From assembly GCA_029213025.1 (NCBI GenBank), contig JARGOZ010000014.1, positions 1 to 64,000 on the forward strand: a stretch of 64,000 nt of DNA, in the 5' to 3' direction. Positions 3,168 through 57,111 of this stretch are shown here, piece by piece. Each line of letters begins with the position of its first letter. Within the stretch, counting starts at the first letter, position 1. Position numbers and translations under genes: made by a program. This stretch comes from Verrucomicrobiales bacterium. Lineage in GTDB: Bacteria; Verrucomicrobiota; Verrucomicrobiia; Verrucomicrobiales; DEV007. Below the pieces are notes generated by a model. It searched no databases. It had not been told where the DNA came from and saw only the letters and a program-made list of their open reading frames with translations.

Positions 3168-3420
3168 ATGCGCACCAATTCGAGGGGTATGTTTTCCCTT
3201 TCGCGTTCTCATTTCTATAGCGGTTCAATCGCACTGCTCTTTGCTTTTGCTGTGCTCATCGGAACGGCACTGGCCGAGCCGAACCAGCCGGCCTTTCTCG
3301 AAACCCGTACCACGAAGAAGCTGTAGTCCATGCCCGAAGGCGACGGCACCATGCTCGACAACACCGTCGTCTATCTCTCCGCGATATTTCATAGTGGTCC
3401 GCCTATCCGGTGGTTGAGAT
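3168..3420 (+). pseudogene. decayed DUF1592/DUF1552-type gene relic with amber codon
   Basis: ATG 3168 opens a 52-codon frame: a signal-peptide-like leader ending ALA-EPNQPAFLET, then RTTKKL and a TAG at 3324-3326. Directly after the TAG, in the same frame, comes SMPEGDGTMLDNTVVYLS, which resembles an internal DUF1552 segment. A CAG-to-TAG change would explain the stop. The leader looks like the start of a secreted cytochrome (FLETxC type) fused by deletion to the end of a DUF1552 gene. Sigma-FecR-DUF1592-DUF1552 is a familiar gene order in Verrucomicrobiota, so this is probably what remains of that operon. A second relic with the same junction and the same TAG lies near 17415. The family assignment is from memory of the motifs. 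Confidence 0.6.
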
Positions 3421-3537: not shown

Positions 3538-6500
3538 ATGGAAATGAAATTATCAACTATTGTCCCTCTCTTCCTTACGTTTGTGGCGGCAGCCTTCGCC
3601 GCAGATCCGCCGACTAGCCCGAGCAAAAAGCCCGCCGCGCAGTTTGACCTCGTGCACAGATCGGAAGTGGCCACCATCGTTTTCGCGGAGACCGAACACA
3701 AGGGGGTATTCCAGGCCGCCAGGGATCTTCAGCGCGACATCACCAAGGTCACGGGGCTGACCCCGAACATCGTGCACTCCGTCGATGAGGCGGCGGGCAA
3801 GTGTATCGTCATCGGCACAGCCGGTTGTCCCGGGGGTAAGGCCCTGCTGAAGTCGGTGGGAATGGCAACCGATGACCTCGACGGGCGTTGGGAGTCCTTC
3901 AAGTATCGGGTCCTCAACAACACGGGCGGGAAGGAACAGGTCCTCGCAATTGCCGGGAGCGACTTCCGCGGAACGATCTTCGGGGTTTACGATTTTGAGC
4001 AGAAGCACATGGGCATCGATCCCCTGTGGTTCTGGGCCGATCACGACCCCGCTACCCGAAGTGAATTGCGCTACGACGATCGGATCAACTTCGGCCCGAC
4101 CAATGAGCCGACCTGGAAGTACCGGGGCTGGACCCTGAACGATCATCCGCAGTTCATCGAGTGGAAGGAATCCGGATTGCTCAAACGCGAACAATACCGA
4201 CGCTACATGTTTTCAATCGATCACGAAGTCTTCGACCGGGTGTGGGAAGCGGCCCTGCGGCTCAAGATGAATATGTTCACGTGGTATTTCGTGGACGTCG
4301 ATTGGCAGCCGGACCGGGAACGTCTGCAGCGGGCGGTCGATCGTGGCCTTTTCATCACCCAGCACCAGATGGAAGGGGTTGGGGCCTACAACGGGTATTG
4401 GGATGATTACTGGAAGAATCACAACCCGACCGGCAAACCGGATGTTTTTTCTTACCGGAAACATCCCGGGGCGTTTCGCGAGTTCTGGGGCTACTACGTA
4501 AAACAGCTTTCACAATTTTCGCCGCAGGTGGTGTGGGAACTGAACCTGCGGGGCTGGGCCGACGGCCCTTACACGGAGCCGACTCTGCCCAAAGGCGGCA
4601 GCGACGAGGAACGGGCCCGGGTCATCAGTGATGCGATCGCCGATCAGGCGAAGCTCGTGCGCGAGATCGATCCCAATCCGGACCCGGAAATGATGACCAC
4701 CCTCTACGGGGAGGTGGGAAAATTCTACGACGAGGGTTGGATCACCGTGCCGGAGGGAGTCACCACCGGGTTCGGCGATGCCGGCATGGATGGCATGTCT
4801 TACTCAAAACGATTTTGGACCGAACCGCGCGATCCGAAAAGGAAATACGGGCAGTACTTCCACACCCAATATTTCGGTGGCGGCCCGCAGATCGCCAAGT
4901 GCACAAACATCGAGAAATATCTGATGGTAAACCTCGGCGCAATTCATGAGCGGGGCGACACCCGGCACATGCTGCTGGCCATGAACGAACTTCGACATCA
5001 GCAGGTCGAGATTCGCGCCATTGCCGAGATGCTCTGGGACTTTCCCGCGTTCAAGCCGCGACAGTACCTGTTGCGCTACTGCAACGAGAATTTCGGTGAC
5101 GAGGCCGGTCCCAAAGTGCTCGACCTCTATGACCAGTACTACGCGAAGTATCCCCACATCCTGAAAAAGGACGAGTTCAAGGAATACACTTACTACTACA
5201 TGATCCTTGAGCCATTTTTTCATGCAGTCACCAACCTGAATAATATCAAGAACGGCAAGCGCGACGGAGTTGTAGCCAATTATCGGTATGATCGAAAAAT
5301 CTACGAACAGGGAATTCGCGATCTGGGTGAGGTTCTGAAACAGGCAGAGGAACTGCTCCCGTCGATCCCGGAGAATCGCCAGTATTTCTATACTTACGAA
5401 TTCATCGATTCGATCCAGTTTATTCGCGGAATCTATAGTCTGACCATCGCTGTCAATGATGCGATAACCAGTCTGAAGGACGACGATCGAAAGGGAGCGC
5501 TCGTTGCGCTCCAGAATGCCAGGCCGTTGGTCGACGACTTGTATGCCGCTTTTGAGCACACCAAATCGACGGAAAAATGGAAGTACTGGTACCGAAGTGG
5601 AACCAACGAAGATTTCTATCTGCTGTTCAATCTATACCAGAAGGCGAGGCTGAGCCTGGAAGTCGATGAACTGAATTTTGTACGCGAGATCGAGCCGCAG
5701 CGGCGACCTTATCGAGGCAACGTCGTCATGCATAACTTCACTCAGGCGGGCGATATCGCCTACGGTGCGCAGGCAGAGCGAATTCATCCTTCGATGTTCA
5801 ACGGCGCGAACGCTTCCATCATGTCGCAGCCGTTGAAGCGAGTTTTTCAGATTCAGGGAGTCCAGCGGGTCGACGGCAAGTGGGATAACTTCGTCCCCGA
5901 CTACGACCTCGGCTACCAGTTCGAGTTGCAGGGCAGGGCGACGGTTTACGTAGCGGTTGATCCGAGGTCCTCACTTGAGTGGCTCGCGACAGAAGGCTTT
6001 CAAAAAACGGATCAGACCATGGACGTCGGTTTCTGGGCCTGGCCCTATCGTTACCAAAATCGGCCGCCGGCCAAAACGGTACCCTTTGAGCTGTTCGCCA
6101 GGGAATACCCGGCCGGCAAAGTTGCCCTCGGAAAGAATCAGCCCAGGGGGAACACCTACCCATACATCGTGCTGGTTCAGCCGGCCTTGCTGGCATACGA
6201 GAATTTCCATGCTGATTCGATCGGTGAAGCTCCCGATGGTTGGCAAGTGGAATCGAACGGTGGCATCGTTCAGGTAGTTGAGAATCCCGATTACGAGGGG
6301 GAAATCCGTCCGACCGTTTTCGATCTGCGGACCGTCCCGCGTTACACGCCGCTGGAACTGCGGAGCCTGCGCCTTGAGACAACCGGGGATTCGAAGGGCG
6401 CAGCGTCAGCCAGGCTGCCGTTCATGGCCCCGTCAGAGGGAGATTTCGTCGTGCAGTTCCGGGTGAAGCCCGGGCAGTCCAATGGCCAAACCTCCCTGTC

Positions 6501-6825
6501 GTTGGAAACTGCCGATGGGCAGGCCGGGATCACAGTTTGGTTTGGTGAGGATGGCCTTATCACCGCCGGTGGGTCGAAGGACTCGCAAGTTGAAGTCGGA
6601 CCCTGCTCAGCGAATCGCTGGTACAACCTGACGGTTGACGTCTCACCGAAAAAGAGGCAATTCAGCGTGTCTTTGCAGGACGACCGGATTGACTCGAAAT
6701 CCACAGGAAACCTCGAGTTGCCCGATTCCTTGAAGGGCCCGTTCAGCGTAATCCAATTGCGTCATTCCGGTGACGTGCCGGGGTCATGGATTGAATATGA
6801 CGCTCTGTGGGGGTACAATCGATAG
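3538..6825 (+). CDS. secreted GH115-like glycoside hydrolase
   Basis: The 1095-residue product has a signal peptide (KLSTIVPLFLTFVAAAFAADP); ATG 3544 is an alternative start. Residues ~30-150 resemble the N-terminal domain of GH115 (xylan alpha-1,2-glucuronidase family). The following barrel has hallmarks such as KYRGWTLNDHP, LRLKMNMFTW, VTTGFGDAG and YFHTQYFGGGPQIAK. A helical region (~550-720) and two C-terminal beta-rich domains follow, the last (~900-1090) resembling a laminin-G/concanavalin-type fold. The likely role is removal of glucuronic acid side chains from polysaccharides outside the cytoplasm. The match is motif-level and substrate specificity is not readable. The last 205 bp, including the stop region, are duplicated at 14500-14703. 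Confidence 0.7.
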   Translation: MEMKLSTIVPLFLTFVAAAFAADPPTSPSKKPAAQFDLVHRSEVATIVFAETEHKGVFQAARDLQRDITKVTGLTPNIVHSVDEAAGKCIVIGTAGCPGGKALLKSVGMATDDLDGRWESFKYRVLNNTGGKEQVLAIAGSDFRGTIFGVYDFEQKHMGIDPLWFWADHDPATRSELRYDDRINFGPTNEPTWKYRGWTLNDHPQFIEWKESGLLKREQYRRYMFSIDHEVFDRVWEAALRLKMNMFTWYFVDVDWQPDRERLQRAVDRGLFITQHQMEGVGAYNGYWDDYWKNHNPTGKPDVFSYRKHPGAFREFWGYYVKQLSQFSPQVVWELNLRGWADGPYTEPTLPKGGSDEERARVISDAIADQAKLVREIDPNPDPEMMTTLYGEVGKFYDEGWITVPEGVTTGFGDAGMDGMSYSKRFWTEPRDPKRKYGQYFHTQYFGGGPQIAKCTNIEKYLMVNLGAIHERGDTRHMLLAMNELRHQQVEIRAIAEMLWDFPAFKPRQYLLRYCNENFGDEAGPKVLDLYDQYYAKYPHILKKDEFKEYTYYYMILEPFFHAVTNLNNIKNGKRDGVVANYRYDRKIYEQGIRDLGEVLKQAEELLPSIPENRQYFYTYEFIDSIQFIRGIYSLTIAVNDAITSLKDDDRKGALVALQNARPLVDDLYAAFEHTKSTEKWKYWYRSGTNEDFYLLFNLYQKARLSLEVDELNFVREIEPQRRPYRGNVVMHNFTQAGDIAYGAQAERIHPSMFNGANASIMSQPLKRVFQIQGVQRVDGKWDNFVPDYDLGYQFELQGRATVYVAVDPRSSLEWLATEGFQKTDQTMDVGFWAWPYRYQNRPPAKTVPFELFAREYPAGKVALGKNQPRGNTYPYIVLVQPALLAYENFHADSIGEAPDGWQVESNGGIVQVVENPDYEGEIRPTVFDLRTVPRYTPLELRSLRLETTGDSKGAASARLPFMAPSEGDFVVQFRVKPGQSNGQTSLSLETADGQAGITVWFGEDGLITAGGSKDSQVEVGPCSANRWYNLTVDVSPKKRQFSVSLQDDRIDSKSTGNLELPDSLKGPFSVIQLRHSGDVPGSWIEYDALWGYNR

Positions 6826-6850
6826 ATTATTTCCGGGCAAAAAAGACTAC
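6646..6850 (+). repeat. 205-bp duplication, left copy (3' end of GH115-like gene)
   Basis: This stretch matches 14500-14703 with about five substitutions and one single-base deletion (about 97% identity by eye). The left copy lies in the intact gene and runs 25 bp past its stop codon. The two copies have the same orientation and bracket the island genes from 6896 to 14284. Whether they mark an insertion, or the residue of a second GH115-like gene, cannot be decided here. Confidence 0.95.
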
Positions 6851-6895
6851 AGCTAGGGAGGGAGTCTGTTCGAAAAACAAATCAAATGAGATAAA

Positions 6896-7858
6896 TCACT
6901 CGTTTTTTTGACTGTCTTTGCGAATTTCGGCTACCGCATTTAAAGGTAGATCCACAATCTCGGAAATTTCCTGATCTTTCATGCCTTTAGCGATCATTCT
7001 GAGAACGATTTCTTTCTTGTTTCGGTCCACTAACTGTTCTGCGACACTTCCTGTTTCGTATTTCATTTTAGGATCTCCTTTCTCATTGATAATAGTCTGG
7101 AATTCTTCGGTCGTCAATCCGGCTCCGGAGAGCAAGGCGTAGGATAAAATCAGGACCACCGGGCTGCGATTGTCTCCGTAGAGAAGGTTCAACTCTTCGA
7201 TGTTTTCCTCCAGCCATTCACCCACTTTGCGGTTCATCACGGCCCGCATCAGGCTTAGGCCCAGCCTGGCAATCGGGGCCTCCGGACGAATCCGAGGAGA
7301 GTCCTCATCCAGCCGGATCAAATCGATTTCGAAGCGCGGCACCCAGCGATGCAATTCCGGATCGAGTCCTTCCACATCAATCAAATCCTCCAGAACGAGG
7401 CCTTTTTTCCAGCCCTCGGTCCCCTGGAACAGGACGATGGGATAAACAAACGGGAGCTTCACACCGGGGAGCAGTCGATCTTCGTTTGCTAGCAGTCGAT
7501 AAATCATCCCCATGTAAATCCACATTCGCAGAGCCATCAGCGAATCGCGTCTCCGCTGGTGCTCCCACAGCACATAAACGTAAGCATCCTCGTCCTCGCG
7601 ATCGCATCGGGGGATCCGAAATAGCAGATCGGACTCAACCTCAGCCATTCGTTCATCGATGAAATGCGAGTTTTCGACCACCAGATCTTCCAATTTTAGA
7701 ACTCGTTTTAAGGTGTCCGGGAGTTGTGCCTCAAGCAGGCCCTGAGCCTCGCGAGGGGAGCCATAATAGCCCAAAACAAAGCGATTGTGCGGTCCCTGCA
7801 TCGAAGTTTCGGAATCGGCGTCCACGTTAGGATCATTGTTTTCAGGTTCTGTCGCCAT
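6896..7858 (-). CDS. Rpn-family PD-(D/E)XK nuclease (YhgA-like 'transposase')
   Basis: The 320-residue product matches the Rpn/YhgA-like family: an N-terminal GYYGSPREAQGLLEAQLPDT segment, then the nuclease core with VESDLLFRI (metal-binding Asp) and YVYVLWEHQRRRD (catalytic Glu-x-Gln variant). Next come MWIYMGMIYRLL, PFVYPIVLFQG and a C-terminal region ending in a probable helix-turn-helix (IAKGMKDQEISEIVDLPLNAVAEI). Rpn proteins are DNA endonucleases reported to promote RecA-independent recombination. They are often annotated as transposases but do not form insertion sequences by themselves. The gene lies 45 bp inside the left 205-bp repeat and reads toward it. A second family member is at 14996-15973. 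Confidence 0.8.
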   Translation of the reverse strand: MATEPENNDPNVDADSETSMQGPHNRFVLGYYGSPREAQGLLEAQLPDTLKRVLKLEDLVVENSHFIDERMAEVESDLLFRIPRCDREDEDAYVYVLWEHQRRRDSLMALRMWIYMGMIYRLLANEDRLLPGVKLPFVYPIVLFQGTEGWKKGLVLEDLIDVEGLDPELHRWVPRFEIDLIRLDEDSPRIRPEAPIARLGLSLMRAVMNRKVGEWLEENIEELNLLYGDNRSPVVLILSYALLSGAGLTTEEFQTIINEKGDPKMKYETGSVAEQLVDRNKKEIVLRMIAKGMKDQEISEIVDLPLNAVAEIRKDSQKNE

Positions 7859-7971
7859 CTCTTTCGTGACTATCCAAAAGCAAAATGAAGCGAGCTACAA
7901 TGATATTCGGCTTTAGCGACGGGGCCTCACAAGTATTTAACTTTTTAGCTCGGGTAGATAGCCTTCCTATA

Positions 7972-8811
7972 CTAGTAATCGCTAAACCAATCCGGATCGA
8001 TAGTAATGTCCTCCACGATCTTTTCTTCTACAGAGACACCCAATTTGTAATCCTTCAACATTCGAACGAGATCGTCACCGTCAATAAGATCCAGCGGCGG
8101 CGCGCCGTCTCTCAAAGCTTCTGCTTTCGCATCACGTGTAAAGGTTCCAGTCGTAATGATGATCCCTTTATCAGCACGCCCGACCATGGCACCTCGAAAG
8201 TCTCGAACTACCGGAGATGACACTGTATCTTTATATCGTTTGCACTGAAAATGAACGTGAAATGAAAGAATGGAGCCAAGCTTCACGACTCCCCGTCCAT
8301 CAATCCCTCCATCGCCCGAACGTCCGGTAACCTCTACTTGAATAAATCCTGATTCCCTCAACACCCTTTGGCAAAGGCGCTCAAAGGCTTCGGGCGGCAT
8401 CCTTTTCACTGCGTCTAGAAGTTCCTGCTCCCAAGAAGTCCCTTCTTCGGACGGTTCTTCTGCACCTTCACTTAATTCATTGTCGCGGATTTTGCGGACC
8501 GCCGCCTTAACTGTTTTTCTCACGACTGTTTTGTCAACTGTCTTTGTCTTCTGCCCTTGGGATGTTAATGCCCAAACGCCCCGTGCAGAGTTATCGATTA
8601 AACCGTATCTTTTTAGATAGGTTCTCGCCCAAGCCAAGTTGTATGAAAACTTTGTGTTATTCTCTCCGTGAGGTTCCTCTAACTCCTCCTCGGTAAGATT
8701 CATAACCTCAGCGACCTTTTCTTCCTGCTCGGGAATCGACGCAGAACTGCCCAGTTGGTGAAGAGCAGTTAACAGGGGATTGAAAAGGTCATCGTATGTA
8801 GGGATTGGCAT
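7972..8811 (-). CDS. mrr: Mrr-type restriction endonuclease
   Basis: The start MPIPTYDDLFNPLL (ATG at 8811) fits the Mrr family better than an upstream ATG that would add 16 residues. The product has 279 residues. The N-terminal winged-helix (Mrr_N) part covers about 1-90 (NLAWARTYLKRYGLID, RGVWALTSQG). The catalytic part has GDGGIDGRG and FQCKRY, the Asp and Gln-x-Lys of a PD-(D/E)XK site, then VVRDFRGAMVGRADKGIIITTG. E. coli Mrr is 304 residues long. Mrr enzymes cleave DNA carrying foreign methylation. No methyltransferase is nearby, as expected for a type IV system. It sits in the island between an Rpn nuclease and a toxin-antitoxin relic. Confidence 0.88.
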   Translation of the reverse strand: MPIPTYDDLFNPLLTALHQLGSSASIPEQEEKVAEVMNLTEEELEEPHGENNTKFSYNLAWARTYLKRYGLIDNSARGVWALTSQGQKTKTVDKTVVRKTVKAAVRKIRDNELSEGAEEPSEEGTSWEQELLDAVKRMPPEAFERLCQRVLRESGFIQVEVTGRSGDGGIDGRGVVKLGSILSFHVHFQCKRYKDTVSSPVVRDFRGAMVGRADKGIIITTGTFTRDAKAEALRDGAPPLDLIDGDDLVRMLKDYKLGVSVEEKIVEDITIDPDWFSDY

Positions 8812-9097
8812 ATGCAAGTTTTTTGAGCGAACCGTGTAAGCACATACAATGGGTGGCAAGTAAAAAGATGTTTTCGAACGACGAAGACGCAGGATTAAAA
8901 ATCAACCCGAATCAGCTTTCTAAAAGGCCTGCATCCGATCCAGAATTGGCCGGTGCAACCGATCTGGAGAACGACGAATCCAGAAGGCCCGGGCCGGCTC
9001 CAGGCTGGAAACTATCCTCAAACGATCAATTCATGCCTTGTTTCGCACCGATTCGTTTAGTTCGCCTGTTGCGTTTATTTCGTATGCTGTTATATTG

Positions 9098-9556
9098 ATG
9101 GCGATGAGCACAACCCTCACTAAAAAGGAAAAAGCTCCTTCTGGAGAAGATTTAAAGCGGGCCAAGGCTTCCGTTGAGCAGCTTACTGAACTTCTGGCAA
9201 GCACGCGGCAAGATTCGTTCGTTGTTATCATTGATGGTCGGGAAATTGAGCTTCCAGGTAGTTTTGCCAGCGTCATGACCGAAGCTTTAAAGATTATCGC
9301 TAACGGTCAGCAGGTTGAAATTTCTTCTGTGGATGCCGAGATTGGCACTCAGGAGGCAGCTGATCTTCTTGGCGTTTCCCGACCGTTCCTGGTGAAGTTA
9401 CTCGATACCGAAAAAATCCCGTCTCGAAAAGTGGGAGTTCAACGGCGCGTGCTTGTTACTGATATTCTTGCCTACCGAGAGAGGGAAAAACAACAAAGAC
9501 GGCGCGTACTAAAGGAATTAGCTGAAACGGACCAGGAACTCGGTTTGGATGAATAA
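9098..9556 (+). CDS. excisionase-type HTH antitoxin (partner of PIN toxin relic)
   Basis: The likely start is ATG 9098 (MAMSTTLTKKEK) rather than the upstream in-frame ATG; the product is then about 152 residues. The C-terminal half carries a MerR/excisionase-type helix-turn-helix: IGTQEAADLLGVSRPFLVKLLDTEKIPSRKVGVQRRV. This architecture, followed by an overlapping PIN gene, is a known type II toxin-antitoxin arrangement. The antitoxin looks intact while the toxin downstream is truncated. It may still repress its own promoter. Confidence 0.75.
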   Translation: MAMSTTLTKKEKAPSGEDLKRAKASVEQLTELLASTRQDSFVVIIDGREIELPGSFASVMTEALKIIANGQQVEISSVDAEIGTQEAADLLGVSRPFLVKLLDTEKIPSRKVGVQRRVLVTDILAYREREKQQRRRVLKELAETDQELGLDE

Positions 9557-9746
9557 CCAGCCGGTCGTGGTTTTGAATGCCTGCGTGTTATACCCGGCAA
9601 CCCTGCGGAACCTTTTGATGTGGCTGGCGGTAAATGATTTGTTTATCCCTAAATGGTCCGAGCAAATTCATGATGTCTCTTCACTTCATAGAAATCCCGT
9701 CGTTTTCTTTTGCAGTCATAACCTTTTGAGGTTCACTATGAGATAG
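9549..9746 (+). pseudogene. truncated PIN-domain (VapC-like) toxin
   Basis: The ORF overlaps the antitoxin end by 8 bp, as expected for a toxin-antitoxin pair. Its first ~42 residues (VVVLNACVLYPATLRNLLMW, then FIPKWSEQIHD) match the start of PIN toxins, whose usual motif is VLDACVLYP. The first acidic metal ligand, Asp, is Asn at residue 10 here. After HD the sequence loses similarity and stops at 65 residues, whereas PIN toxins of this type are about 130-190 residues. The RNase is therefore almost certainly inactive. Confidence 0.75.
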
Positions 9747-9851
9747 CGCTGCAAAAGGAATGGTGAAATTGCGGAAGAAATTGAAACGGAAAGAATACGA
9801 TCTCAGTGAAGGGCCCATTCCTTACAATTGAGAACAATCTAGATCTAGACA

Positions 9852-11624
9852 ATGACTGATATTTCGCCCCCAGAGGTAAAACCCAAAAAAACAAAGAATT
9901 TCGTTCAAATAGCGGATTGCAAAAGCCAATTCCATCGCTTTTTCAATGACCCAGAGGCCGGAATCTTCGTTCTTAAAGGACCATTTGGATGCGGGAAATC
10001 AGAGTTCGTTCGTAGAACAATTTTGAAGGAAGAGGAGTTTGCCAATTCCTTCAAATTTTCAGCGCAGTTATCTTTATTTGGCGGCAAAGATCTGAACACA
10101 GTCGAAGAAGAAATTATTGGTTCGTTGCGGGTGGGAAAGAAAGGAGTCAAGACTTCACATATTGACGAGGCATGTAATTTTTTGGTTCCCGTTTTAAAAA
10201 GTCTAGCTGCTTTGAAAGGGGGCGTTGGTTTGAAAGACTTGATTGGAGGAATGAAGCTTCAAATTTCGGCGAAGACATTATTTTGGAGGTTGGCAAATCA
10301 ACTAGGGTTCTTACTTGTCATTGACGATGTTGATCGGAAAGAACCTGAACTCAAGCTCAACCAAGTGCTGGGATTTACATCATCATTAGTTGAAAAGACG
10401 GAACGGAAAACAAAGGTGATTCTGATTGTAAACGAGGATAAGTTGGATGAGAGGGAAGTCTGGGATGCGCTCCGCGAAAAATTTGTTGATTTCGAATTTC
10501 GGTTTCATCCATCGCCGAGTGAGTTGGCATATGAATACATAGATTCGGTCAATTTGAGAGGGCCTATAGCTGAGATTCATGAAGCACTGTGCTCGCCCAA
10601 CATCCGCACGATGCTAAAAATTGAAAGTCATGTTAAGAATTTGACAAAATTTCTTGCCGACAAAGGTATCGAGATGACAGGGGATCAGCAGGCTTATGCT
10701 GTCAGCTATGCTTCGCTATTTCTGGGCGCAGGAAAAGACTATGTTCTAGCCGACCTTTGTGGGGCCGAGTCGAGGGCGTATAATTATTTTGATAGCCTCC
10801 AGGGAGACAGCGAATCCGAGGCGAGTGTTCGGCGGTCAAACTTGGGGGTTCGAAAACAAAAGACCGAGCACTTCGACCGAATCTATTGGGATATCGTCCT
10901 CTTTAAGTTTTTTAGCGATGGAACGGTTGATGGGGAGACGTTGGATTCGCTGAAAAAATCAATACCAGCTAAGCAAAAGCAAGAAGAATTTTCTGAGCAT
11001 GAGAAGAAGGTTTACAGGCTGCTGTATTGCTCATTTCGTGACACATCAACCGATTTGATTGGTGAAATTTCCCAAGGCATAGAGGAGTTTCCTGAATTCT
11101 ATTCGACCGGAAAAGTAGAAAGCGTGTCCGGCATTGTCAGAGCGTATGGAAACGAAAAGGGTGCTCTTGAATTGTGGAAAAAATGGTTAAACGCTCGCGG
11201 ACCCGATGCCTTTTCTAACATCAGAATAACGGAACTCCACTCGATTGTGCCGCAAGAATGTCATTCTTTGATTCCACCTCTCGATAGTAAGGATCTGGAT
11301 CAGGTAAATCCGCTTGATGTTTTCCGGAAAGCTGAGAATCCGGAAGTCTTTTTTGATTCTGATACAGACTATGATGCTCTTTCACAGAAGACCCCGGAAG
11401 AATGGATCGTGTTTTTTGAGTCAATGACAATTGAGGAGGAAGCTGAATTTGAGAGTTTCCCACAAGCCGTTCGGGAAGTAGTCGACGATGCGGGGAAAGG
11501 TAAATCACGCGCTACTATTGCGAAAAACTTGAAGGAAGCATTGCGCTCTCTCGCTGAAAAGACGCCATTAAATAGGTTCCGAATCGGGAAATTGTTTCCA
11601 GATCTATTTGACGAGAAGAAATGA
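9852..11624 (+). CDS. KAP-like P-loop NTPase
   Basis: The 590-residue product has a Walker A motif at about residues 43-50 (GPFGCGKS) and a Walker B at 154-162 (LLVIDDVDR), with a sensor-like strand VILIVNEDKL near 190. The IDD-DR signature resembles KAP-family NTPases (FIDDLDR). No membrane segment is evident. The C-terminal 300 residues are helical, charged and of unknown function. It is AT-rich compared with flanking housekeeping genes. KAP-like and related STAND/AAA NTPases recur in anti-phage islands, and Mrr and nuclease-NTPase genes lie close by, so a defence role is plausible but inferred. A 57-codon ORF overlaps its stop by ATGA. Confidence 0.7.
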   Translation: MTDISPPEVKPKKTKNFVQIADCKSQFHRFFNDPEAGIFVLKGPFGCGKSEFVRRTILKEEEFANSFKFSAQLSLFGGKDLNTVEEEIIGSLRVGKKGVKTSHIDEACNFLVPVLKSLAALKGGVGLKDLIGGMKLQISAKTLFWRLANQLGFLLVIDDVDRKEPELKLNQVLGFTSSLVEKTERKTKVILIVNEDKLDEREVWDALREKFVDFEFRFHPSPSELAYEYIDSVNLRGPIAEIHEALCSPNIRTMLKIESHVKNLTKFLADKGIEMTGDQQAYAVSYASLFLGAGKDYVLADLCGAESRAYNYFDSLQGDSESEASVRRSNLGVRKQKTEHFDRIYWDIVLFKFFSDGTVDGETLDSLKKSIPAKQKQEEFSEHEKKVYRLLYCSFRDTSTDLIGEISQGIEEFPEFYSTGKVESVSGIVRAYGNEKGALELWKKWLNARGPDAFSNIRITELHSIVPQECHSLIPPLDSKDLDQVNPLDVFRKAENPEVFFDSDTDYDALSQKTPEEWIVFFESMTIEEEAEFESFPQAVREVVDDAGKGKSRATIAKNLKEALRSLAEKTPLNRFRIGKLFPDLFDEKK

Positions 11625-11794
11625 GCGAAGAGAACCCAAAACTGACAAGAATTGCAACCCGGGGAGTTTACCTACCGGGAAAACGGAGCAAAGGTGGAGG
11701 TTGCATAATAAGGGGGCAGTCAAAAACATTTTGTATTTGCCCATTCTCGAATGTTGGAACGTCGTTTTTGCAAAGAATTGTAGAATATTTTTGA
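11621..11794 (+). CDS. small ORF coupled to the KAP-like NTPase gene
   Basis: A 57-codon frame (MSEENPKLTRIATRGVYLPG, then a cysteine- and glycine-containing stretch, ending RIVEYF) starts with an ATGA overlap on the NTPase stop. It may be a genuine small partner protein, or the stump of a longer gene lost when the convergent gene was acquired. It has no recognisable domain. Support is only the overlap and continuous reading frame. Confidence 0.35.
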   Translation: MSEENPKLTRIATRGVYLPGKRSKGGGCIIRGQSKTFCICPFSNVGTSFLQRIVEYF

Positions 11795-11850
11795 CTGGTA
11801 CCTCTACACGTTAAGAAACGCGTGAAGCCTTTTTTATCTTAATAATTAGT

Positions 11851-14284
11851 TCACTTTTTATGCCGCCCTTTTCGGGGGGCTTTCTGGGAGGATTCAATTT
11901 CATCGATTTCTTTTTCTCCTTTATCAAGAAGCTCGCTAATGAGTGTTCGTCCGCTAGAGTCATGTAACTGAGTCAACGAATCTTTTAAGTATTCAATAAA
12001 CACCCTAGTCGAGATCAATCTTTCTTTCAGATCATCACCAACAAATAGTTGAGTCTTAACTGCATTATCTATTATGGGTGTATCGACTATCATCGCGTCA
12101 TAATACTGAAACTGAGATGTCATTTCATATAGATGAAACACGCCTCTGCTTCTTATACGATAGCCTTCATTGAGAATCCCGCTTCTTCCTTGAAGGTTCT
12201 GAACTTTGATGCATTTCCCCTTAATGAGCTTATCCAAATGCCTGATGAACACATCACTCGAAAAATGGTAGGACTGCATGTATTGCTTAAAATTAACAGC
12301 ACTCACATAACCGTCGTCCTCAGTGGCCTTATCGAATCGGGACAGAAATTCGAGGGCGAGAATCCGAAAGAAGTGCTCTTTTCTGTCGCTATAAAAGACT
12401 TCGAAAAGATTAAGGAAAACTGAGGAATGGGGGTCAAACTGCTTGTAGTCACCGTAAAGCAAGGTTTTTACAGCCTCAAAGTCAGGTATAGTATAGTTAC
12501 CGCTCTCTTGGATCCGTGAAATTATTTTCCTGGTATCCAAATGTCCACTTGTGAGTATTCGTTTAGCAAGGTCGTTTAACTCCCGAATATTTGAATTCGA
12601 TAGCGCCGTGAGCATCTGAATTGCACTGGTTTTTTTTCTTGAAGAAAACCTGCAACACTCAAGGATTTCAGCAACACTAGGCAATTTTAGTGCGACATGG
12701 GTGTCATTGACAAACTGTTTCACAATTGGATTTTCAATATCACCCATTGTAATCCGCTTGGCGTAATCGAAGCGACGTTTTAAAACTAACGACAAATCCG
12801 GCTGTCCCACTGTAAACGTCTTGGGTGCGACCGAGTCTAAGACTCCGTTCGCCAGCGACTCGAAAAAAGTTTCTGGACGAAGGCAAATGAAAACGGCGCA
12901 GCCCCAGTCTCTTGCAATTGACGACGCTTTCAAAAAAGCGGCTTCTTGAATTTGTCCATTTCTTCTGTCCAAATTATCAAAGAAAATTGCAATGGACTTC
13001 CCTTGTCCCTTTTTTAAATGTCGGAATAGATCACGAAAATATTTGTGTTTGCTCCGAATTTTTTCCTCAATAAAATCCGATTCAGCTTTTCTCTCCAGGT
13101 CGGGATCTCCACTTTGCAATTTCCATTTCGAACTCTTTCTAAACCGACCTAATTCCGTATGTAGGACGCCTCTGACAATTGAGTCCTCTTGGATGTCAAT
13201 CTTGAATTCGTTTAGTAAAAGCGTTTCAATTTCTTCATATATAAATTCAGTCACCTCACCTTCATTGTCAGGTCGATCAAGAAAGTTTAGTTGGATTTGG
13301 ATATACTTATCCAATTCATGTTTGCCGGAAAAAAGCCTCAAATGGTCTAAGAAACTCGTTTTCCCTCTGCCGACTTCTCCCAAAATCACGAACGGTTTAT
13401 CACTTAATCCGGACTTAATTGAATCAGATACTTTTACAACATGGTCAACGTCTGTTGAGCGTAGGTTCTCGTCAGCCTCGGAACGCATCTTGAGAATCTC
13501 ACGTGCGTATGTTGTAATATCTTTGTTGTAACTAGATTCAACATAACAGTGATTGAGGAATTCTTCAGAATGCTCACATGTATCGAGCACGTCCCAAAGC
13601 TTGTTCAATACAAACGATAATTCATTGAGGTACACGTTTCGGTCGGAAATCTGAGGATAATTGGGGATTTCCCCCGAGAGTTTCCTCGGAGCTGGTTTGG
13701 CACGGCTATCAATCAGTGATTCGGCTATTGAATTTGACTCGATACCATTCTTACTAAAACAGTCCCAGAAGAGGCGAAAATTCCTCTCAATACTTTCGAG
13801 TGAGTCGAAAACAAATACTTGCCTATCTTCAATGGCCTGTGCCTGCACGAATGTTAAGGAGATTATCCACTGTTTACCGTTCGTGATAGCAATGAATTGT
13901 GAGCCGAGCTGTGTTGCGTATCCTGCTGCTTGAATCATCGCTGTTCGGGCGTTAGAAGACTTCTGAAGCGAGGAGCGAGAATGGGACAGGCTTTTTCGCG
14001 TCTATCTTTCCCAACTCAATTGTGAAGCCTACTCCGGTCTTCTTTGCTTCGAGAACGAGTGGTAAATTGTTGTTCAAGATAAAAACGTAGTCTGCAAAAC
14101 CCTCATCCCGGCAATATTTTTCAACTTCGACTTCGGATTTCGTCCAATCGAGGATCTCAAAAAGGATCTCGTCGATAACCTCCAAGCGAGTTTGAGCTTC
14201 GTTCGAATCAACGTCAAAAAGCTCAAGTTTACCTTTTCGCTTTTTAAATTCTAGAAACGCCTCCTCAGCTGTCCACTCTTCCAT
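11851..14284 (-). pseudogene. PD-(D/E)XK nuclease-NTPase fusion gene, interrupted by one frameshift
   Basis: Two adjacent frames read as one protein of about 805 residues. The N-terminal ORF (14284-13952, 110 aa) holds a PD-(D/E)XK core of the HSDR_N type: RLEVIDEILFEIL, GFADYVF (Asp65) and LVLEAKK (Glu79, Lys81). It ends SEVF-stop. One base out of frame, the sequence continues SNARTAMIQAAGYATQLGSQ then FIAITNGKQW, the expected next part of that domain. The downstream frame (start ATG at 13938, 695 aa) has Walker A GEVGRGKTS (187-195) and Walker B SIAIFFDNLDRR (315-326). The whole looks like a DNA nuclease fused to a P-loop NTPase, as in several defence systems. Whether the +1 shift is real, programmed or a sequencing error is open. 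Confidence 0.7.
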
Positions 14285-14499
14285 TTAGAGATTATGGAGA
14301 TGAACGATTAAAAGGCAACATCGTCTTCAAAAACGCACCACAAACATCTATCTAAATCTAGCCCAAATACAGCTACTCCGATCAACTTCTGTTGATAATA
14401 TGAAAAATATGATAATCAGCCAAAACAAGAAGTCGAAACTATCGTCAGCCGATCAATAATGCCTCGCTTCATGAAGAGGGTGCCAGGCTCATTGTTCCC

Positions 14500-14703
14500 C
14501 CGAAAAAGAGGCAATTCAGCGTGTCTTTGCAGGACGACCGGATTGACTCGAATCCACAGGAAACCTCGAGTTGCCCGATTCCTTGAAGGGCCCGTTCAGC
14601 GTCATCCAATTGCGTCATTCCGGTGACGCGCCGGGGTCATGGATTGAATATGACGCTCTGTGGGGGGACCATCGATAGATTGTTTCCGGGCAAAAAAGAC
14701 TAC
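14500..14703 (+). repeat. 205-bp duplication, right copy
   Basis: A near-identical, same-orientation copy of 6646-6850, with one base deleted so that it no longer encodes the GH115 C-terminus in one frame. Nothing upstream of 14500 resembles the rest of that gene. Its right end coincides with the TAA that borders the MITE-like element, so that junction may have been created by the element. Confidence 0.95.
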
Positions 14704-14706
14704 TAA

Positions 14707-14879
14707 GGGCCGCGGAAAAAATAACCACCCCAACTTCCTTGATCTTTTGTCCGTCTTCATCGTTGGAATCCGGATCATTTAGCGGAAGGCCGCCCCACTC
14801 GCTAAACTCAGCCCGATTCCGCCTCGAATACGAACAAAATCTCTGCGGAATTTGGGACGTTTATTTATTTCCGCGGCCC
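14707..14879. mobile_element. 173-bp MITE-like element with terminal inverted repeats
   Basis: The ends are GGGCCGCGG and CCGCGGCCC, perfect 9-bp inverted repeats. They extend inward to about 33 bp at roughly 85% identity (GGGCCGCGGAAA-AAATAA against GGGCCGCGGAAATAAATAA, then CCCAA and TTCC shared). TAA is present directly outside each end (14704-14706 and 14880-14882), consistent with a 3-bp target-site duplication. There is no ORF inside. This is the structure of a non-autonomous transposon. The mobilising transposase is not in the window. Confidence 0.65.
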
Positions 14880-14995
14880 TAACCGCGCTTTGACTCCGCT
14901 ATCCGGATCTTCTAACCATTCAAGCCCCTTCTCAAACAGGTATTGACGATAGTCGGCTCTCGCCTTGCGCCAGGCCGGGAGTTTGGTTTACTTTC

Positions 14996-15973
14996 TCAAG
15001 CGCCATGTTTTTCCAACCAATTGGAAAGATCATCCAGCGAAGTGAACGCAAGGGCAGCGTCGAAAAGTCTTTCGAGTTGATCCCCGGCGAGAGCGGAAAC
15101 CCTCTTTTGCTGCGATTCCGATAATTCGCCACATGACTTCTGCAAAAGGCGAAGCACCATTTCAGCCTTGCCTTCCTCCTTCCCTTCTTCTTTAGCAAAT
15201 CTTTCCCACGATGTTATGTATTCTGTCATTTCTGGAAACCTTTCGGACTTGATGGCTTTCAACTCCTCACGGAGTCGCCTTTCCAAATCTTCGCTCAGAT
15301 GCATCATCCAGTCAAGGTAGCGCAATATCTCAAGCACTTCGTCGCGCTCGTATTTGTGCTCGTACAACATGCGGATAAGTTGCTTCTTCGCTTCGTATCG
15401 CGCTTCGGCATCGGACGAAGTCCTGAGGGCTTCGATCTGGGCACGGGCAACCATCACGGGGAGAGTGAAATCATCAACCCAGGTCGTTTTCAGGTTTTCA
15501 GAGATCTTACAGGTCGGAAATTTTGCGTTCAAAGAGTATTCGTCCAACTCGAAGTGATAAGTCAGCTGTTCCCACTTGCGGGCAAGATCGGTTCGGATCA
15601 CCAGAGAAACCACGTCGTATTCCGGAAACTGCCACTGCAAACCGCAGTTCAAAAGGTAGAGGCGCTTGCCGAGATCAGATGAATAGTTGGTCTGAACTTC
15701 AAAATGCAGCAGCACGATCTGTTGTTCTCCCGTTAGCAAGGTGACCTGAACGATTACATCGACAAATTTGTTGCGCCGCTTCGCTGTTCCCAGAAATTGA
15801 CTGACTTCTGTGGGGTCAAACACCGGTTCGGTATTCCAATCGACGTTTCCGGCCATCCCCGCGAAGTAAACATTCAAAAACGCACGGAAATGATTCACAA
15901 TAAAAGCTTTCCAGGGCTCATCATAATTGCTGTCGTGAGAAGTTGATGGCTCGCTTTTCTTTCTTTTCGGCAT
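14996..15973 (-). CDS. Rpn-family nuclease with DUF4351-like C-terminus
   Basis: The 325-residue product belongs to the broad Rpn/'transposase-like' PD-(D/E)XK group. The core shows FVDVIVQVTLLTGEQQIVLL (Asp) followed by HFEVQT (Glu-x-Gln), then KRLYLLNCGL. The C-terminus (EEGKEEGKAEMVLRLLQKSC, LSESQQKRVSALAGDQLERL) resembles DUF4351. It is a different subfamily from the Rpn gene at 6896-7858. Together the two stand at the outer edges of the island. The function, DNA cleavage linked to recombination, is inferred from family knowledge. Confidence 0.75.
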   Translation of the reverse strand: MPKRKKSEPSTSHDSNYDEPWKAFIVNHFRAFLNVYFAGMAGNVDWNTEPVFDPTEVSQFLGTAKRRNKFVDVIVQVTLLTGEQQIVLLHFEVQTNYSSDLGKRLYLLNCGLQWQFPEYDVVSLVIRTDLARKWEQLTYHFELDEYSLNAKFPTCKISENLKTTWVDDFTLPVMVARAQIEALRTSSDAEARYEAKKQLIRMLYEHKYERDEVLEILRYLDWMMHLSEDLERRLREELKAIKSERFPEMTEYITSWERFAKEEGKEEGKAEMVLRLLQKSCGELSESQQKRVSALAGDQLERLFDAALAFTSLDDLSNWLEKHGA

Positions 15974-16694: not shown

Positions 16695-17218
16695 CAACCT
16701 CTGCCCGGGCGTGAAAAGAACGAGAGTTCCTCGTAGAGTCAAGCGGGCTGCCGATTTTGGATCGCCCTGCGAAGAATGAAATCCTGACCAGGGGTAAGGA
16801 GCACTTGGTTGCCCTGAAGGAAACCCGCGTTTCGAAATATCAGGATGGCCCCGCTCTGGTGCCTATACCGAAGGGTGGGAAGGTGGCGGTTCGCGAAGCC
16901 CTCCCGATAGAGTACCTCGAGCGCTTAGATCTACAAAATGAGTTCTTTGGTGATGATCTTCGGGTCGAAGGGGTTTTGAAGAGCGGCAAGCTGGTGACAT
17001 CGCAAACATTGGTCAAGGGAAGCCAGCCGACCGGGAAAGAAATGACCGGGATGTTGAAGGACTTGGGGTGGGTGAGGATCCCTGCCAATCTTCATGACCT
17101 GCCTCACAATCTGATGGCGACAGCGTGGATGCATCCAGGGGAAGAGATTGTTTTGGTCGATGCAAGGATACCCAATTTAAAAAGACACAGAGCGGCGATG
17201 TGCTGGCAATTGATCTGA
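16695..17218 (+). pseudogene. polyvalent-protein-kinase-like domain fragment
   Basis: The frame is open from 16695, but the first usable start is TTG 16757, giving 153 residues. The stretch PIEYLERLDLQNEFFGDDLR, then VLKSGKLVTSQTLVKGSQPT and finally IVLVDARIPNL, follows the pattern of the kinase-like domain found in phage/plasmid polyvalent proteins (…P.EYL.RL..QN..FGD, VTSQPFI.G, DARP.NV). The ATP-binding N-terminal part is short and the C-terminus breaks off at LKRHRAAM. It is probably a truncated remnant of mobile DNA. The assignment rests on remembered motif spacing. Confidence 0.45.
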
Positions 17219-17322
17219 TGTGGTCAAAGCGAAAGGAGATCTGTTAAGTATGGTGAAGGGGATTGAGGTTGATTACTGACAGCGAAGCCTCGTGTTCAAA
17301 TTCAGCTCTTTTTCAAATTCCT

Positions 17323-17351
17323 GTTAGACTTCCACTCTCCCGCGGAGAGAA
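17323..17351 (+). promoter_or_regulatory. copy of the ECF promoter motif ahead of the second relic
   Basis: GTTAGAC at 17323-17329, a 13-bp gap, then CGGAGAGAA. This is the same layout as upstream of the sigma gene and of the cytochrome-DUF1080 gene. It is followed by ATGTTGTCAGAAGAAGA (17366), which encodes MLSEED, the first codons of the sigma factor at 1256. Confidence 0.45.
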
Positions 17352-17365
17352 AGGACAAGGACTAT

Positions 17366-17545
17366 ATGTTGTCAGAAGAAGATCACGTGAAATACCATGA
17401 AATTCCACCCGCCCATGATAAAACGTCAATTTCTCACAGCGATTTTGGCTTTTGCGATCCTCTCCGGCACAGTCAGCGCCGAACCGAACCAGCCGACCTT
17501 TCTCGAAACCCGCACCACGAAGAAGCTGTAGTCCATGCCCGAAGG
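17366..17545 (+). pseudogene. second relic: sigma start fused to DUF1592/DUF1552-type remnant
   Basis: MLSEEDH (the sigma factor's opening residues) is followed almost at once, in another frame, by ATG 17415. That frame encodes a 38-residue secreted-leader peptide ending SAEPNQPTFLET-RTTKKL and TAG (17529-17531), then SMPEG. The part from CCGAACCAGCC to ATGCCCGAAGG is nearly identical to the relic at 3168-3420, including the amber codon, although the leader sequences before it differ. It looks like an internally deleted copy of a sigma/FecR/DUF operon. Confidence 0.55.
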
Positions 17546-21541: not shown

Positions 21542-21583
21542 TTTTCAGAAAATTGTTACACCGATCTACTGCGATGGAGAGAA
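21542..21583 (+). promoter_or_regulatory. copy of the ECF promoter motif upstream of the cytochrome-DUF1080 gene
   Basis: The 20 bases 21542-21561 are identical to 1201-1220, and TGGAGAGAA follows GTTACAC after 13 bp. The next gene begins 55 bp further on. This links the gene to the sigma factor at 1256-1786. Confidence 0.5.
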
Positions 21584-21637
21584 TGGGGGACTACTACCAG
21601 CCGCGCTGGATGAAACTTAGCAATACCCTTTACGCTT

Positions 21638-54717: not shown

Positions 54718-57111
54718 ATGAAAGTTTCTCTAAAGTGGCTCAGCGATCACGTTGATTTCAGCGACTACAGTATGGATCAGTTGGATGAATTGCTGACCTT
54801 CGCCGGTATCGAAGTGGAGGGGATTACCAACCTTCCCGACAAAGTGGTGGTAGCGGAAATTCTGTCGGCGGAAAAAGTCCCGCAGACTGATAAACTGGCC
54901 GTTTGCCAGGTCAATGACGGTACCGGTACCAATCGCCAGATTGTCTGCGGAGCGCAGAACTATAAGCCGGGGGATAAAGTTCCTCTGGCTCTGCCTGGTT
55001 GCAAACTGGACGCCGGCGACGGTAAGATTTTTGAGATCAAGAAGAGCAAGCTCAAAGGCTTCGATTCCCATGGAATGATGTGTGGAGCATCCGAGATCGG
55101 TCTCGAAGACGAGAGCGACGGGCTTATGATTCTGCCCGCCGAGCTGGAGCCGGGAACCCCGATTACCGAAGTGTATCCGGCGATCCTCGAATTGGAGATC
55201 ACGCCGAACCGCCCCGACTGCCTCAGTCATCTCGGAGTGGCCAGAGAGCTCGCTGCTCTTGTCGGGCGCGAGTTGAAAGGCGTTCGCGACCATGGTAATT
55301 CCGGCACCCCGACCCGCAAGGCGAAGAAAGATGAAATCGCGATAGAATCGGATAGTTGTCCCTACTACACAGGGCGTTGGATTCGTGGCGTCGAAGTAAA
55401 GGAATCACCCGCCTGGCTGAAAGAAAAACTGATTTCTATAGGTCTTCGGCCAATCAATAATGTAGTGGATATCACCAACTATGTATTGATGGAGATGGGC
55501 CAGCCGCTCCACGCTTTCGATCTCGCTAAACTCGATGGAGGCATCGTAGTTCGCCAGGCAAAAGAGGGCGAAAAATTTGCCGCTCTCGACGGAGAAGAAT
55601 ACCAACTCACGGCCGAAGATCTGGTGATTGCCGATCAGAAGAAAGCTGTCGCCATTGGTGGCGTTATGGGGGGCGAAGACTCCGGGGTAACAGAGGAGAC
55701 TACAGATATCCTTTTGGAGTCGGCCTGGTTTGTTCCTGCGGATGTGCGGCGCACTTCCAGAACCTCCGGGATCCGCTCTGATTCCAGCTATCGTTTCGAG
55801 CGGGGAGTTGATCCGCAGCAGGTCAAAGGGGCATCCGATCTGGCTGTGAAATTGATTCTCGAACTGGCCGGAGGCAAAGTCGACGACGAAATTGTCGAAT
55901 GCGGGAAAATTCCGGCTGATCCTAAACCGGTTAAGATGAGTGGCGATTTTTGTCGCAAAGTGATCGGCACAGATATTCCGGATGAAAAGATTGAAGAGAT
56001 CCTCACTTCTCTCGGCCTCGGAAAGAGTAAAAAAGGCTGGGAAATCCCCTCCTTCCGTCGGGATTTGGAACGGGCTGTGGATCTTGTCGAAGAAGTGGCT
56101 CGCGTCTACGGTCTCGACAATGTGCCATCCAACACAGTGGCGCGTTTTGTGGAGTCCTCGAAAGCGGATGCCGCCTACGACTTTAACCGCCGGATTCAGG
56201 AGACTTTGTCTTCTCTTGGTTTTTACGAGACCCGGAATTTGAAACTGATCTCGGAAGAGCAGCTCGATGACAACCGGGCGACGAATCTTCGGGGTATGAG
56301 TCCGATCCGTCTCAAACATCCTTTGAATGATGAGCAGGACTATCTGCGTCCCGGATTGGTGCCGGGTCTCCTTGCATCAGCAGGACGAAACGTTCGCTTC
56401 GGTAACCCGGATCTGCGTCTCTTTGAAATCGGAAAAGTTTTCACGATGACGAAGAAGGGTATGGAAGTAGAGAATGAGAATCTCGCCCTGCTCATGACCG
56501 GTGCCCGTTATCCCGGTAGCTGGTCGGACAACAAGCCGGAAAATGTAGATATACATGATCTTCGGGCCGCACTCGCAGCTATTATGGGGTCGGAAAGCGA
56601 AAACCTTGTTCTTGTCCCTTTGGAAGATGATCGTCTGCCCGGAGCCTGCAGTATAGAGCTGGGGCGGGGTAAGAAGTCTGCGAAGCTCGGTATAGCCGGG
56701 TATTTACCTCCGTCGCGGGGACGGGATTTTGATATAGAGACACCTATCGCTGTAGCGGAGTTGAATCTGAAGAAGCTGTCTGCGGCATTGTCCGTTCCGG
56801 TTACCTTTGAAGAACTACCGAAATTCCCCGGAAGCTCGCGGGATATCGCGATGGTAGTTCCCGGAGATTTGCCCAACGAGACGGTAGCCACGTTCTTTGC
56901 CGACTTGCAGGAACCACTCTTGATTGAAGCCAAGCTCTTTGATGTATTCCGCGACGAAACTGGAGAGAAACTCGATGCCGACAAAAAGTCAGTGGCGTGG
57001 TCGCTGCTGTATCGTTGTCCGGAACGAACTCTCGAAGGCACCGAAGTGGAGCAGGCTCATGAAAGGGTATTGAAAGGCCTGCAGAAAGCATTGCCTGTCG
57101 AATTCCGGTAA
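54718..57111 (+). CDS. pheT: phenylalanine-tRNA ligase beta subunit
   Basis: The 797-residue product has an EMAP-II-like tRNA-binding domain (about 39-150: VVVAEILSAEKVPQTDKLAV), the B3/B4 editing region (about 210-380: LRPINNVVDITNYVLMEMGQ, LLESAWFVPADVRRTSRTSG), the B5 domain, the catalytic-like core (DYLRPGLVPGLL) and a C-terminal anticodon-binding domain (FPGSSRDIAMVVPGDLP, LFDVFRDETGEKL). It is complete. The stop lies 9 bp from the end of the convergent trmJ-like gene. Confidence 0.97.
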   Translation: MKVSLKWLSDHVDFSDYSMDQLDELLTFAGIEVEGITNLPDKVVVAEILSAEKVPQTDKLAVCQVNDGTGTNRQIVCGAQNYKPGDKVPLALPGCKLDAGDGKIFEIKKSKLKGFDSHGMMCGASEIGLEDESDGLMILPAELEPGTPITEVYPAILELEITPNRPDCLSHLGVARELAALVGRELKGVRDHGNSGTPTRKAKKDEIAIESDSCPYYTGRWIRGVEVKESPAWLKEKLISIGLRPINNVVDITNYVLMEMGQPLHAFDLAKLDGGIVVRQAKEGEKFAALDGEEYQLTAEDLVIADQKKAVAIGGVMGGEDSGVTEETTDILLESAWFVPADVRRTSRTSGIRSDSSYRFERGVDPQQVKGASDLAVKLILELAGGKVDDEIVECGKIPADPKPVKMSGDFCRKVIGTDIPDEKIEEILTSLGLGKSKKGWEIPSFRRDLERAVDLVEEVARVYGLDNVPSNTVARFVESSKADAAYDFNRRIQETLSSLGFYETRNLKLISEEQLDDNRATNLRGMSPIRLKHPLNDEQDYLRPGLVPGLLASAGRNVRFGNPDLRLFEIGKVFTMTKKGMEVENENLALLMTGARYPGSWSDNKPENVDIHDLRAALAAIMGSESENLVLVPLEDDRLPGACSIELGRGKKSAKLGIAGYLPPSRGRDFDIETPIAVAELNLKKLSAALSVPVTFEELPKFPGSSRDIAMVVPGDLPNETVATFFADLQEPLLIEAKLFDVFRDETGEKLDADKKSVAWSLLYRCPERTLEGTEVEQAHERVLKGLQKALPVEFR

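Follow-up and report, generated by a model that had tools for sequence, protein, structure and literature searches.

Prophage e14 of Escherichia coli K-12 provides a case of a gene end duplicated at inserted DNA: it duplicates the 165-bp 3' end of icd, and the duplicate, icdC, has 12 nucleotide changes (PMC11148124, PMC6379469). Foreign DNA can also be added without a site-specific recombinase through homology-facilitated illegitimate recombination, which combines one homologous anchor with one illegitimate joint (PMC3240628). In addition, RecA-independent recombination increases on overproduction of four E. coli Rpn proteins, and RpnA leaves polymerase-extendable 3' hydroxyl ends and promotes short exchanges (PMC5350276). 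A literature search for duplicated gene ends at islands found no paper.

Here, we describe a locus of similar layout in a verrucomicrobial draft genome of 7.88 Mb (338 contigs, 95% complete, contamination estimate of 4.5%). The window, i.e., the whole stretch of DNA that was analyzed, is the first 64 kb of the 69.8-kb contig C188. Like icd/icdC, the locus has the 3' end of a metabolic gene, here a GH115 glycosidase gene, directly duplicated around apparently inserted DNA, with the live copy in the gene and the dead copy on the far side; the copies are a few per cent diverged in both systems and are 165 bp long for e14 and 205 bp long for GH115. The original prediction regarded a 205-bp unit as exceeding the length of a normal att site; this argument fails in view of the 165-bp e14 repeat (PMC11148124, PMC6379469), while the general idea of integration keeps its precedent. 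Unlike e14, which has an integrase and for which e14-free strains prove insertion, the GH115 locus yielded neither an integrase nor an empty site, and its cargo consists of nuclease and NTPase genes rather than phage genes. Overall, the locus looks like an insertion scar of a known general type and not like an active mobile element.

Two copies of a GH115 gene end

The segment at positions 6646 to 6850 recurs in the same orientation at 14500 to 14703, 7.7 kb downstream, and a gapped alignment of the two copies has 199 of 205 identical columns (97.07%). The copies differ by a 1-bp deletion at 6697 and by substitutions at 6750, 6776, 6814, 6817, and 6829, and the longest identical run is 52 bp. 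This repeat is by far the top match in a self-comparison of the whole window (E = 7.6e-95; the next pair is 68 bp), and a genome-wide search found exactly two copies in the 7.88 Mb. The near-identical direct repeat, with its single 1-bp deletion, is thus as originally claimed.

The left copy (plus strand) comprises the last 180 bp of an intact GH115 gene (3538 to 6825, plus strand; 1,095 amino acids; PF15979, E = 1.9e-45) and 25 bp beyond its stop codon. Homologues of this GH115 protein are 54 to 61% identical across nearly the full protein length. In the right copy (plus strand), the deletion shifts the reading frame, and the four substitutions in the coding part are three missense changes (V1080A, Y1093D, and N1094H) and one synonymous change; the fifth lies past the stop. 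Residue 1093 is Y or W in all aligned GH115 relatives, and it is Y in the left copy and D in the right copy. Judged by these differences, the left copy is the live and functional 3' end of GH115 and the right copy is a dead scrap, which decayed after losing function, given its frameshift, its missense changes, and the D at a conserved Y/W position.

The original prediction also held that recombination between the copies would excise the intervening DNA cleanly, which is not borne out by the crossover products worked out from the sequence. A crossover to the left of 6697, within the first 51 bp of the repeat, would move the frameshift into GH115 and give a product of 1,064 amino acids with a scrambled tail. 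Only crossovers to the right of 6697 would keep GH115 at 1,095 amino acids, and most of these would alter up to three residues. Excision by recombination between the copies would therefore not always be clean. An identical run of 52 bp is in principle sufficient for RecA-type recombination.

Genes and composition between the copies

The genes between the copies hold up as originally called. Next to the left copy, an Rpn nuclease gene (YhgA-like, Transposase_31; 6896 to 7858, minus strand; PF04754, E = 2.9e-31) is followed by a gene for an Mrr-type restriction endonuclease (7972 to 8859, minus strand; Mrr_cat, 2.5e-31; Mrr_N, 9e-22). A toxin-antitoxin relic on the plus strand (9038 to 9746) consists of an HTH_17 antitoxin protein (9038 to 9556; 1.1e-9) and a short PIN-like scrap (9549 to 9746), the likeness of the latter being read from the sequence without a Pfam match. 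Then come a low-GC gene for a KAP-family P-loop NTPase (9852 to 11624, plus strand; PF07693, 3.5e-7; PADLOC candidate PDC-S49, 5.3e-17) and a nuclease-NTPase gene (11851 to 14284, minus strand) with an HsdR_N-like domain and a KAP-like NTPase. The nuclease-NTPase gene is broken by a frameshift near 13,945: an 826-amino-acid homologue (L164, genome G130), in which HSDR_N is matched at 5.7e-4, aligns in two frames, with the break at homologue residue 132. In the three other genomes with a nuclease-NTPase relative (G130, G225, and G285), it occurs without relatives of the window's Rpn, Mrr, or KAP proteins. The block is therefore not a conserved unit, and the idea of a conserved island present elsewhere was rejected.

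The Rpn family has five matches in this genome. Contig C306 carries an Rpn paralogue approximately 88% identical to that of the window (L017, 7776 to 8771) and, 2.7 kb away, an internal 206-bp Rpn scrap (5243 to 5449), and a scrap of the Rpn 3' end (~167 bp) is present on contig C323 (L018, 6710 to 6875). A 32-bp sequence directly downstream of the window's Rpn gene (6862 to 6893) has a 91% match on contig C219 (L019, 6744 to 6775), where, as read by eye, it lies directly downstream of an unrelated minus-strand gene.

We compared GC content to that of 1-kb windows of a genome sample (mean, 51.2%; s.d., 4.4). The Rpn gene, at 50.9%, falls at the 41st percentile and Mrr, at 47.7%, at the 11th; the KAP gene (43.5%) and the nuclease-NTPase gene (41.8%) fall at the 2nd and 1st percentiles, respectively. 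The stretch at 14285 to 14499 has 39.5% GC, below the 1st percentile, and GC is 53.4% from 14500 onward. The compositionally extreme block therefore starts near 9.8 kb and stops exactly at the right copy (14,499/14,500), and there is no composition edge at the left copy, where Rpn is ordinary and Mrr mildly low. All of the genes between the copies had been described as unlike their neighbors in composition, which is only partly right, as only KAP, the nuclease-NTPase, and 14285 to 14499 are extreme. The broader proposal of a flanked island stands insofar as a gene-end direct repeat flanks foreign-looking defense genes and the right copy is the right edge of the low-GC block; however, the pieces differ in composition and so are not a single island in this respect, and genes of accessory type are also found beyond the right copy. 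The inner edges of the flanked region (6851 to 7900 and 13400 to 14499) show no similarity to each other.

Right of the repeat

A 174-bp MITE-like element (14707 to 14880, unstranded) starts three bases after the right copy. It has a self-inverted match, with the terminal inverted repeat GGGCCGCGG, and TAA on both sides. Four copies were found in the genome (in the window and on C306, C153, and C219), with TNA at the ends; the flanks are TAA/TAA, TCA/TCA, TAA/TTA, and TGA/TAA, so that two of the four copies have matching 3-bp flanks. The evidence that this element caused the right end of the repeat is suggestive only.

Beyond it lie a gene for an accessory DUF4351-type protein (14996 to 15973, minus strand; PF14261, 2.8e-16) and an accessory open reading frame (ORF) (16757 to 17218, plus strand) with 62% identity to L166 (12643 to 13071) of genome G285, where this relative is located ~2.2 kb from the nuclease-NTPase relative. 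Accessory-type genes are thus found on both sides of the right copy, to ~17.2 kb.

Other repeated sequences occur in the region. The segments at 3229 to 3340 and 17434 to 17545 form a second direct repeat (81% over 112 bp), each segment having a signal-peptide start to which a short tail is fused; the tail presumably resembles a DUF1552 protein. A leader-like element precedes three genes (1200 to 1245, 17309 to 17385, and 21542 to 21586), with the stretch GGAGAGAAAGGA in the first two copies. A tandem array built from the 3229 to 3340/17434 to 17545 pair and the leader pair (1200 to 1275/17309 to 17385) was rejected, as the order is not that of one tandem duplication; the recurrence of 1200 to 1245 at 21542 makes it probably a dispersed leader element.

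Similar repeats elsewhere in the genome

We surveyed 2.03 Mb (26% of the genome) for low-copy repeats with a minimum length of 200 bp and a minimum identity of 95%. This sample was non-random, consisting mostly of the first 20 kb of contigs plus several whole large contigs, and it also took in contigs chosen for their Rpn or MITE copies. Five pairs were found in this 26%, all of them direct repeats within a single contig and none between contigs: the 205-bp repeat under study (C188, spacing of 7.7 kb) and repeats on C153 (224 bp, spacing of 33 kb), C36 (224 bp, spacing of 1.0 kb, plus one more related sequence on a different contig), C155 (285 bp, spacing of 1.8 kb), and C165 (542 bp, spacing of 0.2 kb). 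With four other spaced, direct, same-contig repeats, the GH115-end repeat thus belongs to a recurrent class.

On C155 (L098), the 285-bp direct repeat (5174 to 5457 and 7292 to 7576) holds the ends of convergent RCC1-like and alcohol dehydrogenase genes, and the copies flank 1.8 kb with a trypsin-like gene that separates these two genes. The first 60 bp of the copies are ~85% identical and the rest more than 99%. The C155 locus has the anatomy of an insertion with duplication, as at the GH115 locus. Each edge on C155 also has, on its inner side, a copy of another direct repeat (~40 bp).

The C153 case is of another kind. At contig positions 56626 to 57101 (L137), two gene fragments abut, overlapping by 2 bp; the genes they match are located at 42.2 kb and 23.7 kb on this contig, at distances of 14 and 33 kb, and there is no island at the boundary. 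Synonymous-to-missense ratios relative to the source genes are 4:0 and 21:6, so the fragments may have their origin in other strains or in paralogues rather than in a local paste. The survey class is therefore recurrent but mixed, and the five cases prove neither one mechanism nor a 3'-end bias.

Relatives and recombination machinery

This GH115 is present in 1 of 33 genus relatives, at 63% identity and in non-syntenic surroundings, and none of the 33 is close enough to show an empty site. No syntenic empty site was found through the GH115 protein in 57 relatives or through the right-flank DNA in 34 genus genomes. A relative with a tandem GH115 pair, named originally as the observation that would mark the right copy as a gene remnant, was not seen in seven homologous loci inspected together with flanks of up to 10 kb or among the best two matches scored per genome in 388 genomes.

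As in e14-type integrase islands, a gene 3' end is directly repeated on both sides of the intervening genes. The tyrosine recombinase family (PF00589), for which the genome-wide search was made, has 11 matches, none of them on contig C188, and no recombinase was found among the window ORFs scanned with Pfam. There is no tRNA within the 64-kb window, and no phage or conjugation genes were identified among the Pfam-scanned ORFs between the copies. The window's repeat list contains no inverted repeat pair at 6851/14499. A transposon insertion with target duplication is not supported, as the repeat is 205 bp long, not a short fixed-length duplication, and that list has no pair of edge inverted repeats. 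Ku (PF02735) had no match in this 95% complete genome, in a search whose control detects Ku in Bacillus subtilis, and Ku-dependent end joining was accordingly rejected as the cause.

Origin of the repeat

We put at roughly 45% the probability that the GH115-end repeats are the scar of the insertion of a foreign block with a duplicated gene end, where we infer the insertion itself, its having been a single event, and its route. A foreign block ending in the low-GC KAP and nuclease-NTPase genes would have joined beside GH115, and during joining the 205-bp segment (the GH115 3' end plus 25 bp) would have been left on both sides. The likeliest route would be a single crossover or illegitimate recombination assisted by homology, with the gene end carried or copied by the incoming or rearranged DNA, preferred because no integrase and no Ku were found; a flanking duplication of exactly this form would be our own extension of the published mechanism (PMC3240628). 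Selection would then have maintained the left copy as the true end of the gene, while the right copy, like parts of the inserted block, decayed. Insertion is supported by the position of the right copy exactly at the end of the low-GC block (39.5% to 53.4% GC), by the polarizable changes (the frameshift and the D at the Y/W residue), which are all in the right copy, by the recurrence of same-contig, same-orientation repeats of similar size, by the C155 anatomy, and by the match to icd/icdC. Against it stand the failure to find an empty site, the left copy without a composition edge, the accessory-type genes to ~17.2 kb, the lack of an integrase or tRNA nearby and of Ku in the genome, and the C153 scraps, which, joined without an island, fit a paste process better.

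Such a process is a serious rival, albeit one we consider rather unlikely: the genes would already have been present, and template switching in the course of repair would have placed a copy of the 205-bp GH115 end in a break at 14,499/14,704, perhaps where the MITE inserted, so that the repeats delimit no element. The two joined fragments at 56626 to 57101 of C153, with their 2-bp overlap, the Rpn scraps of 206 bp (C306) and ~167 bp (C323), the end of the right copy at the MITE-flanking bases, and the accessory genes on both sides of that copy all agree with this account. However, a random paste would not predict that the right copy is also the edge of the low-GC block, and the mostly synonymous differences on C153 (4:0 and 21:6) possibly reflect origins in other strains or paralogues. 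That the right copy is instead the remnant of a second, tandem GH115 gene is unlikely. The relic pair at 3229 to 3340 and 17434 to 17545 shows earlier duplication at the locus, but neither the seven loci nor the scored matches from 388 genomes include a tandem GH115 of this subfamily, and 97% identity needs a recent second gene, of which 3.1 kb would have gone without other traces in 6851 to 14499.

Quite improbable is an e14-type integrase island that has lost its integrase, with the repeats as attL and attR. The left copy does restore the gene 3' end, with a degenerate displaced copy on the far side and a size near the 165 bp of icdC; yet none of the 11 integrase matches in the genome is on C188, the window has no tRNA, the repeat has only two copies in the genome, and no phage or conjugation genes were identified between them. 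An artefact of assembly seems the least probable origin. Strain mixtures can produce false duplications in assemblies, and this fragmented draft genome, probably metagenome-assembled, has 338 contigs, a contamination estimate of 4.5%, and several survey repeats of similar length (200 to 290 bp). However, the longest identical run, at 52 bp, is shorter than common final assembly word sizes, the window contains no N, and the differences (three missense, one frameshift, and one synonymous) resemble those of a decaying, dead gene end more than variation between strains, a pattern that argues against two strain alleles merged by the assembler.

Rpn-promoted recombination offers a parallel in that an Rpn gene adjoins the left copy, but several Rpn copies are present in the genome. 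Given this position, the five family matches, and the biochemistry of RpnA (PMC5350276), Rpn may be regarded as a candidate source of the breaks behind such duplications. A far-reaching extension, which we hold to be very doubtful, is that this lineage actively copies 200- to 290-bp gene scraps, often 3' ends, to nearby sites in the same orientation and sometimes around foreign genes, that multiple Rpn nucleases could drive this copying via template switching, and that defense genes could be captured in this way without an integrase or Ku.

Implications

Taken alone, the locus adds one case to those in which a duplicated gene end flanks accessory DNA. If the repeats are an insertion scar, they mark how, in this lineage, defense-type genes settle beside a glycosidase gene with no integrase in sight. 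Should the pattern of the survey also hold in closed genomes, short local duplication of gene ends would generally supply pseudogene scraps and recombination substrates in this lineage.
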